From NCBI GenBank assembly GCA_012519745.1, contig JAAYPO010000069.1, positions 1-49,152 of the forward strand: DNA of 49,152 bases, read 5' to 3'. The position numbers and the translations under genes are program-made. This document shows, piece after piece, positions 6,293-13,767 of this stretch. Every line of letters starts with the position of its first letter. Position 1 is the stretch's first letter. The notes under the pieces are model-generated. The model made no database searches, was not told where the DNA came from, and saw only the letters and a list, made by a program, of their open reading frames with translations. The DNA comes from Clostridiaceae bacterium (GTDB lineage Bacteria > Bacillota > Clostridia > Acetivibrionales > DTU013).

Positions 6293-7805
<1,513 letters not shown>

Positions 7806-9590: not shown

Positions 9591-9631
9591 AAAAAAACCC
9601 TCGTCAACTGCATTGCTGCAGGGACGAAGGG
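9591..9631 (-). terminator. Regulated intrinsic terminator of the T-box leader
   Basis: CCCTTCGTC (9623-9631) pairs with GACGAGGG (9598-9605) with one bulge. An inner CTGCA/TGCAG stem with a GCAA loop caps it, and seven T residues follow (9591-9597). The antiterminator would use the adjacent T-box sequence at 9642-9655. Uncharged tRNA-Leu should prevent termination. Confidence 0.88.
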
Positions 9632-9865
9632 TATGATCCAACGTGGTACCACCCTGATTCGGCAGGCATAAGCCTACCCTCGGTAAGTACTGGTGTACTT
9701 GACTGTAACGCAGTCTGCGTCATCATCTGGGATAAATCTTCAATGATGAAGCTCCGGAATGAGCTATACACAGTTCCTGTGCACCGGCTTGCACCACCCG
9801 CCGGCTCTCTCTGCCACTTTGGTCCTGTCTTCTTTCCTTCATCGCACTGCCCTGTTCAAAATGAT
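9591..9865 (-). ncRNA. T-box riboswitch, probable tRNA-Leu (CUC specifier)
   Basis: Leader of the ilvB operon on the minus strand. Stem I closes with GATGAAG (9837-9843) pairing CTTCATC (9745-9751). Above it are AGAGAG (about 9805-9812), an apical stem CCGG/CCGG (9801-9804 and 9784-9787), and the candidate specifier CTC at 9761-9763 followed by ATTCCGGAGC, in the usual place just above the stem I base. The T-box sequence AGGGTGGTACCACG is at 9642-9655, next to a terminator. CUC reads leucine, which fits an operon containing leuA. An alternative ATC triplet at 9745-9747 is part of the stem I base and less likely. Confidence 0.92.
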
Positions 9866-11954: not shown

Positions 11955-13289
11955 TCAGTAATTTTTCAGATAAGTATCTATCTCCCATCTGCTGACCCTT
12001 GTTTTGTATTCATTACACTCTTCCATCTTTGCCTCTATATACTTGCCGAATATATGATCTCCAAGGACCTCTCTGGTAAAGCTGCTTTCAGACATCTCAG
12101 CTATCGCTTCTTCCAGGCTGCTTGGCAGCGAATCTATCCCCGCTGTCAGTCTGTCCTGGTCACAAAGGTCAAACAGATTTTTGTTGACCGGTTCAGGCGG
12201 CATGATCCTGTTTTCGATCCCATCAAGCCCTGCCATAAGTATTGCAGCCAGTGCAAGGTATGGATTGCAGCTAGGGTCGGGATTCCTCAGCTCGAGCCTG
12301 GTAGCAGTACCGCGGGCTGCAGGTACTCTGACCAGCGGGCTTCTGTTTCTGGCTGACCATGCTATATATATCGGAGCTTCATATCCCGGGATGAGTCTTT
12401 TGTAGGAATTGACAAGGGGGTTTGTCAGTGCTGTGACAGCTCTCATGTGTTTCATCAGTCCTCCGATGAACCAGTATGCCTCCTGACTCAGTTGATACGG
12501 ATCCTTCTCATTATAGAACATGTTCCTGCCGTTTTTGAAGAGCGATGTGTTTATGTGCATGCCTGAGCCGGCTATACCAAAGACAGGCTTTGGCATAAAC
12601 GTGGCATGGAGGCCATGCCTCTGTGCAATAGTCTTGACCACAAGCTTGAATGTAAGTATTGCATCCGCTGCTGCAAGTGCGTCTGTATACTTAAAATCTA
12701 TCTCGTGCTGACCCGGTGCCACCTCGTGATGCGAGGCTTCTACTTCAAAGCCCATCTCCTCCAGCACAAGGCACATATCCCTTCTTGCATTTTCCCCCAG
12801 ATCCACCGGCCCCAGATCGAAATAGCCGGCTTTATCATGGGTGATGGTAGTGGGATTTCCCTCGCTGTCTGTCAGGAACAGAAAAAATTCACATTCCGGT
12901 CCCACATTGAATGTATCATATCCCATCTCCGATGCTTTTGCCAGCGCTCTCTTGAGAACATACCTGGGATCACCTTCAAACGGCTTGTCGTCGGCGGTAT
13001 ACACATCACATATCATCCTTGCGACCTTGCCTGTCTGCGGCCTCCATGGGAAAATCACAAATGTATTGATGTCCGGCCTCAGATACATGTCCGATTCCTC
13101 TATCCTGACAAAGCCTTCAATAGATGAACCGTCAAACATGCATTTGTTGTCCAGTGCCTTCTCCAGTTGTTTTGCAGTTATTGCCACATTTTTCAGCATA
13201 CCGAAAATATCAGTAAACTGCAGCCTTATGAACTCCACACCCTCATCCTGTACGATCCTGATTATATCTTCCTTCGTGTATTCCGGCAT
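11955..13289 (-). CDS. glnA: Glutamine synthetase, type I
   Basis: ATP-dependent synthesis of glutamine from glutamate and ammonia. The 444-residue length matches the GSI-alpha type of Bacillota, which lack the adenylylation insert and are controlled by feedback. Motifs: [20 protein letters not shown], the metal-binding [11 protein letters not shown], the ammonia/glutamate site around [11 protein letters not shown], and [23 protein letters not shown] split across the C-terminal domain. The start MPEYTKED at 13289 has GGGGGTG upstream; the frame is open 14 codons further, but those lie across the leader terminator. Its leader has a terminator and antiterminator-like hairpins, so expression is probably controlled by attenuation. 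Confidence 0.96.
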
Positions 13290-13311: not shown

Positions 13312-13353
13312 AAAAAAGCGTACTTAAACAAGCTGAATGTTGTTTAAGAACGC
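13312..13353 (-). terminator. Intrinsic terminator (attenuator) in the glnA leader
   Basis: GCGT-T-CTTAAACAA (13340-13353) pairs with TTGTTTAAG-T-ACGC (13318-13331): 13 base pairs with one T.T mismatch and an 8-nt loop, then TTTTTT (13312-13317). It sits between the glnA promoter and the glnA ribosome site, so glnA mRNA must read through it. Confidence 0.85.
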
Positions 13354-13405
13354 CATTGTTCCTGCAACTTCTATTATTCTGACCTTATACGGTATCCCTA
13401 ACCAT
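13346..13405 (-). promoter_or_regulatory. Candidate ANTAR-type antiterminator hairpins in the glnA leader
   Basis: Hairpin 2: AGGAAC [AATGGC] GTTCTT at 13346-13363, a 6-bp stem with a hexaloop having A at position 1 and G at position 4. Its 3' arm overlaps the 5' arm of the terminator, so the two structures exclude each other. A weaker hairpin 1 at 13389-13405 has ATGGT(T) [AGGGAT] ACCGT, again with A1 and G4 but a bulged T; it competes with a longer ATACGGTA/TACCGTAT stem. ANTAR regulators are known to bind paired hexaloop hairpins of this kind. No ANTAR gene is in the window. Confidence 0.6.
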
Positions 13406-13424
13406 CGAGGTGTACCGTATTTAT

Positions 13425-13452
13425 ATTTTAACATTAATTTGATATATTACAA
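13425..13452 (-). promoter_or_regulatory. Probable glnA promoter
   Basis: TTGTAA (13447-13452), 16-nt spacer, TAAAAT (13425-13430) on the minus strand, ending about 20 nt ahead of the leader hairpins. The weak -35 and short spacer make this a moderate call. Confidence 0.5.
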
Positions 13453-13471: not shown

Positions 13472-13514
13472 GAAAGAGACTGCGGCATGTCATCTTTTTG
13501 CTGCAGTCTCTTTC
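13472..13514 (-). terminator. Strong hairpin downstream of rubredoxin
   Basis: GAAAGAGACTGC pairs with GCAGTCTCTTTC across a 19-nt loop region. On the minus strand it is followed by ATTTATTT, a modest T-rich tail. It separates the rubredoxin gene from the glnA promoter. Confidence 0.7.
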
Positions 13515-13526
13515 TCTTCATCTTCT

Positions 13527-13688
13527 CTATTCTTCCTTTTCAAACATATCCTTTCCTACTCCGCAAAGGGGGCAGACCCAGTCGTCCGGAAGATCCTCAA
13601 AGGGTGTACCGGGTGCAATACCCGCATCGGGATCACCCAGCTCAGGCTCGTAGACATAACCGCAAGCAGTACACAAGTACTTATCCAC
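13527..13688 (-). CDS. Rubredoxin
   Basis: Small Fe(Cys)4 electron carrier of the cytoplasm, usual in anaerobes for NAD(P)H-dependent peroxide or superoxide reduction. Both Cys pairs are present: [14 protein letters not shown] and [12 protein letters not shown]. The GTG at 13688 is the likely start: AAGGAG lies 8 nt upstream and the product is 53 residues, the normal size. An in-frame ATG at 13715 would place the ribosome site inside the coding sequence. It stands alone between two hairpin or promoter regions, with no partner reductase nearby. Confidence 0.95.
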
Positions 13689-13767
13689 TAAATCATCTCC
13701 TTCTATCAGACTCATTCTTTATCTATATTACCCATGAAACATGGTCGTAAACGAATTTTTTTAAATA

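Follow-up and report, generated by a model that had tools for sequence, protein, structure and literature searches.

Background

glnA-nitR operons are known from clostridia. The target of an ANTAR protein has been defined as a hexaloop with A at position 1 and G at position 4, topped by an A-U pair and then the closing C-G pair, in a hairpin (P2) that excludes a terminator and is preceded about 5-12 nt upstream by another hairpin, P1 (PMC3369931). Antitermination by EutV needed both hexaloops and their spacing (PMC3369931; PMC8934654), yet EutV engages its hexaloops singly, G4 stacking on Tyr164, and binds either loop alone with comparable affinity (PMC8934654). In that 2022 work a single hexaloop was proposed as the minimal ANTAR target, attenuation was left open and a bioinformatic search for single-loop sites was called for. 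Attenuation of nitrogen genes by ANTAR proteins is already known, and the single-hexaloop attenuator is a new variant of it; as a widespread natural form it was not found in the literature searched beyond PMC8934654, the supplementary tables of PMC3369931 being outside that search.

Results and discussion

Layout of the glnA leader

The window is the whole stretch of 49,152 nucleotides that was analysed, from a Clostridiaceae bacterium, and it carries the following features at glnA.

11955-13289, minus strand: glnA, type I glutamine synthetase of 444 aa, the putatively regulated gene (Pfam Gln-synt_C 464.9 bits and Gln-synt_N 116.4 bits)
13425-13452, minus strand: promoter-like pair TTGTAA-16-TAAAAT with TG upstream (consensus scan, 9/12 matches)
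near 13418, minus strand: predicted RNA start of the glnA leader, placed from the promoter-like pair
13381-13418, minus strand: 5' hairpin ATACGGTA-loop-TACCGTAT, 8 bp (minimum-energy fold)
13346-13363, minus strand: putative antiterminator hairpin AGGAAC[AATGGC]GTTCTT carrying one hexaloop of the ANTAR type (A1 and G4, with A-U and C-G as top pairs; fold, conservation and outer-pair covariation)
13318-13353, minus strand: terminator stem of 4+9 = 13 pairs with one T-T mismatch (fold and covariation)
13312-13317, minus strand: U-tract of the terminator, six T (sequence)

Our reading of this leader, which comes from sequence comparison and to which we give a probability of roughly 0.8, is that it is a transcription attenuator that responds to ANTAR through a single hexaloop and that the only ANTAR protein of the genome reads it. 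Computation gave two mutually exclusive structures that are conserved, no P1, an ANTAR gene with conserved RNA-contact residues and the co-occurrence of element and gene. An earlier examination of the letters alone (the sequence-only reading) had proposed a promoter-like pair, a 13-bp intrinsic terminator ahead of glnA and a hairpin whose 3' arm overlaps the 5' arm of the terminator, and all three were recovered. The promoter placement is similar in relatives. The terminator, GCGT-T-CTTAAACAA / TTGTTTAAG-T-ACGC followed by TTTTTT, folds at -12.8 kcal/mol (z -5.0), the antiterminator hairpin folds at -3.9 kcal/mol (z -3.4), and the leader as a whole folds much better than its shuffles (z -4.3). 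The antiterminator's loop position 5 is where the 5' arm of the terminator starts; this arm takes in loop positions 5-6 and the antiterminator 3' arm, and because bases 13353-13346 serve both structures the two are mutually exclusive.

A weaker upstream hairpin with the loop AGGGAT, which had also been proposed, has to be given up, as one T-A pair alone can close that loop and the stretch sits in the ATACGGTA...TACCGTAT hairpin. This 5' hairpin has no ANTAR hexaloop and its sequence is not conserved; in a congener (L004) the same spot is occupied by another 8-bp hairpin. Further upstream on the minus strand lies a rubredoxin-like gene (about 13535-13697), which is also the neighbour in L009 and L017, and between it and glnA there is a strong hairpin at about 13475-13518. 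When the window was scanned against Rfam the sole match was a T-box leader elsewhere, at 9617-9851 on the minus strand (RF00230, 95.6 bits), before an acetolactate synthase-like gene.

Conservation and covariation

The glnA loci of 60 relatives were fetched and their leaders compared, and the same element was found upstream of glnA in most of them, which puts it beyond chance. A covariance model built from glnA leaders, with the window copy included in the training, scores that copy at 63.7 bits. When the element was aligned over 18 glnA leaders of the order, A1 was present in 16/18 and G4 in 16/18, which bears out the earlier remark that the loop resembles ANTAR targets in these two bases, and the closing C-G pair was kept in 17/18.

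The sequence-only reading had named a lack of covariation in homologous leaders as grounds for refuting it. Covariation was found, in the terminator of these leaders and in one pair of the antiterminator stem across a wider set of hairpins. In the terminator, 7 of the 14 aligned pairs show changes on both sides, and its covariation score was 0.383 compared to a shuffle mean of 0.277, with 0 of 500 shuffles as high, a statistic that kinship among the sequences can inflate according to the caveat of the tool. Loop position 5 covaries with the 3' arm of the terminator (G-C, A-U, G-U). The antiterminator pairs were kept in 93% of cells in the 18 leaders, versus 30-54% after sliding. No double compensatory change in the antiterminator was seen in the glnA leaders alone (n=18), a point against our model; such a lack is to be expected where the 3' arm serves two structures. 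Since the antiterminator 5' arm and loop bases 1-3 fall outside the terminator, their conservation is explained only by the antiterminator. In a set of 51 distinct hairpins spanning several families of genes, for which G4 was required and the second-outermost pair was not a selection criterion, this pair covaries, being paired in 32 compared to 19.8 expected (p 1e-4).

The same comparison bears on leader-peptide attenuation, in which stalling at Asn or Gln codons would pick the structure. A short frame, AGGA-ACA-ATG GCG TTC TTA AAC AAC ATT CAG CTT GTT TAA, does overlap the hairpin and its AGGA is Shine-Dalgarno-like, but its start codon falls in the variable part of the loop: positions 2-4 read ATG, GTG or TTG in 20 of the 51 distinct hairpins and AAG, ACG and similar in the remainder of this set, which was selected for G4, and position 3 varies in the 18 glnA leaders too. 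As the start codon is not conserved we rejected the leader peptide, which we regard as very improbable.

One hexaloop and not two

In the window, a scan upstream of P2 found no A1/G4 hexaloop, down to a stem of 2 pairs. Likewise, such a hexaloop with at least 4 pairs and within 60 nt upstream of P2 was found in 0 of 23 GSI-type glnA leaders, whereas chance alone would give 0.5. The RNA of Clostridium, Blautia and Sedimentibacter is predicted to start just 2-11 nt before P2, which leaves no room for an upstream hairpin in these leaders. P1 being absent, the window leader falls outside the published dual-hairpin definition, as do the 23 GSI glnA leaders, although it has the other features listed in PMC3369931, namely the A1/G4 hexaloop, the top pairs AAC[..]GTT and a P2 that overlaps and excludes the terminator. 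The earlier proposal of an ANTAR-controlled attenuator is supported by the exclusive structures, conservation, co-occurrence and gene neighbourhood, whereas its paired hexaloops have to be dropped.

Two hexaloops do occur in the same clade before glnN, which encodes GSIII, as TTTTAAAC[AATGGC]GTTTAAAA followed by GAAC[GAAGGC]GTTT and in similar forms, and because these leaders share their loops and top pairs with the single-loop form they tie it to ANTAR targets. They are also, with the two hexaloops at L068, L080 and L082, what speaks for taking the glnA leader as a canonical dual-hexaloop target whose first hairpin lies upstream in a degenerate or unusual shape. We consider this quite unlikely, as P1 is lacking in all 23 GSI glnA leaders and the predicted RNA of three genera leaves only 2-11 nt before P2. 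Dozens of putative natural single-loop attenuators, compact leaders among them, precede nitrogen genes.

A second design of glnA leader was seen in relatives, at L014, L019, L020, L027, L030 and L209, with a hexaloop of the form TACTC[AATGAA]GAGTA or ACTC[AATGGA]GAGT nested in the terminator (GGACGTAC...GTACGTCC); some leaders of this group have an extra upstream hexaloop, ATGC[AATGAG]GCAT.

The ANTAR protein of the genome

The regulator had been predicted to be encoded away from glnA, and this is supported: a single ANTAR gene is present in the genome, on a different contig (C135), where it adjoins prfB (release factor 2), identified from its translation. The protein matches PF03861 with 61.5 bits (curated cut-off 27.3) and its closest solved relative is EutV (E 2.8e-17). 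Among the residues through which EutV is reported to contact RNA (PMC8934654), R142, K143, K149, E160, Y164, R168, M172 and R175 are identical in this protein, which differs at K147 (R), N173 (D) and R177 (T). The residues predicted to read G4, R142, K149, E160 and Y164, are thus conserved, and a hexaloop with G4 is present in the leader.

A tree of 78 ANTAR proteins, in which bootstrap was not settled, shows several clades of ANTAR paralogues in the order. The genome of the window lacks the clade encoded immediately after glnA, and its sole ANTAR protein belongs to a prfB-linked clade. In all 18 members of the latter Y164, R168, E160 and K149 are present, and of the 17 further members that were examined 16 have prfB alongside. 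Paralogues next to prfB (L147, L141, L174, L156, L155, L148 and others) were seen in nearly every genome examined. That the ANTAR gene beside glnA in most relatives is of another clade than the one found here counts against our model. Two other genomes, G036 and G052, likewise have the prfB-linked clade only, and their single-hexaloop glnA leaders are intact.

We infer binding of the leader by the ANTAR protein and the direction of the switch, and the signal may be nitrogen or glutamine status. By default the nascent RNA would form the terminator (13353-13318) and RNA polymerase would stop at 13312-13317. Upon activation of the prfB-linked ANTAR protein, a dimer would grip the single hexaloop AGGAAC[AAUGGC]GUUCUU, recognising G4 and the upper end of the stem, and the bound hairpin would hold bases 5-6 of the loop, together with the 3' arm, away from the terminator, the base of which could then not form, so that glnA would be transcribed. 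A single hexaloop might be insufficient for this, as antitermination by EutV needed both loops and their spacing (PMC3369931; PMC8934654).

Association of the element with ANTAR genes

The full pattern GAACRNNGGCGTTC...CGCTTTT was found in 24 of 341 Clostridia genomes and the reversed control was found in 0. An ANTAR gene is present in 23 of these 24 genomes compared to 172 of the 341 overall (Fisher p 9e-7, the genomes being phylogenetically non-independent); in the exception, G169, none was found. Of 49 relatives that possess ANTAR, 38 carry an ANTAR gene no more than 1.5 kb downstream of a GS gene. The genes downstream of the element, named from their translated starts, are glnA, glnN, gltB, asnB, purA and those for an ammonium transporter and an amino-acid ABC permease; the commonest in the pattern genomes is that for the glutamine-amidotransferase subunit of split glutamate synthase.

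By a hand count of recognisable glnA leaders, the hairpin is sound in 18 of 18 genomes with the glnA-linked or the prfB-linked ANTAR clade. In the five genomes with neither clade the terminator is retained while in four of them the closing pair or G4 is lost (U-G closing in G001, C-A in G003, G4 to A in G004 and G017), and in G006, which is 87% complete, the hairpin is intact and an ANTAR gene was not found. This apparent decay of the hairpin where both clades are missing (Fisher about 6e-4 by hand) is only suggestive, with three congeners in the sample and some assemblies incomplete.

These genomes also bear on whether the terminator could be constitutive or otherwise regulated, with another RNA-binding factor or a metabolite, and not an ANTAR protein, binding the hairpin. 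G006, and G001 with its weakened hairpin, carry the leader and no ANTAR gene was detected in them, as such a mechanism would allow; like G169, they speak against our reading. It is nevertheless unlikely: 23 of 24 pattern-bearing genomes do possess ANTAR, the loop and top pairs fit the target rules of EutV, and no family in Rfam, the glutamine riboswitches and the T-box included, gives a credible match to the leader, where nothing reached the gathering score and the weak matches up to E 10 were to implausible families and far below their cut-offs.

In two congeners (L222 and L223, of G002 and G004) a single-hexaloop switch, GGTGAAC[AAAGGC]GTTCATC, stands before a purC-like gene; an ANTAR gene was not detected in G002.

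Other candidate switches in the genome

A wider pattern, GRACRNNGNNGTTC, gave 15 matches in the genome of the window, fewer than its reversed control (39), and therefore matches were kept only with a promoter, a terminator and a position before a gene. The asnB leader has the same switch, GAAC[GAGGGC]GTTC (asnB, GATase_7 154.6 bits), and the split glutamate synthase operon has GAAC[AAAGGC]GTTC right where its RNA is predicted to start. A fourth candidate precedes glnN (L137, G000:C7, upstream at 6646) and has another stem, CGGC[AAAGGT]GCCG, wholly inside the terminator 5' arm. The same ANTAR protein probably controls asnB, the split glutamate synthase operon and glnN. A copy of the wider pattern on contig C85 was rejected as it lies inside a coding frame, and L066, L076, L083 and L201 were set aside because they resemble coding or chance matches. 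Just upstream of the TATAAT of asnB (L117, about 1955-1995, G000:C9) there is an inverted repeat, ATGCAGGAA...TTCCTGCAT, possibly an operator for a second regulator.

Implications

We lean towards a wider view, that one hexaloop suffices for natural ANTAR antitermination and that a clostridial nitrogen regulon (glnA, glnN, glutamate synthase, asnB, ammonium transporter and purine genes) is on single-hexaloop attenuators, often right after the promoter, which would be read here by a prfB-linked paralogue that keeps the G4-binding residues of EutV. If single-loop leaders respond to ANTAR proteins, then the two-hairpin rule is not general, earlier searches for two hairpins overlooked part of clostridial nitrogen regulation, and these minimal leaders would be good templates for kinetics. 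The single-loop leaders make the minimal-target question of 2022 testable for attenuation. Because EutV needed both loops yet binds each singly, they also test its two-loop model directly. Control of glutamine synthetase and glutamate synthase is relevant to industrial and gut anaerobes.

Comparison with known systems

The dual-hexaloop antiterminators of EutV in the Enterococcus faecalis eut leaders (PMC3369931; PMC8934654) share with the glnA leader the A1/G4 hexaloop with its A-U and C-G top pairs, the overlap of the 3' side with an intrinsic terminator and an ANTAR protein with the same G4-reading residues. They differ in having two hexaloops and not one, the target here is glutamine synthetase, and in the alignment the receiver domain of the ANTAR protein described here is without the N-terminal acidic pair of EutV. 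With the predicted ANTAR nitrogen regulons of glutamate and glutamine synthases, for example in Desulfotomaculum (PMC3369931), the gene themes and transcription attenuation are shared, but that search demanded two hairpins and so would miss single-hexaloop leaders, a comparison made without its supplementary tables.

As in the clostridial glnA-nitR operons, an ANTAR gene directly follows glnA in most relatives, whereas here the sole ANTAR gene adjoins prfB and is of a different clade. On nitR in Clostridium nothing was found in the open literature beyond PMC8934654. Finally, the extra single hexaloop of EutX and rli55 (PMC8934654) likewise places one ANTAR hexaloop bearing G4 in an RNA, but those are sequestering small RNAs whereas the hexaloop described here would be part of an attenuator of its own operon.
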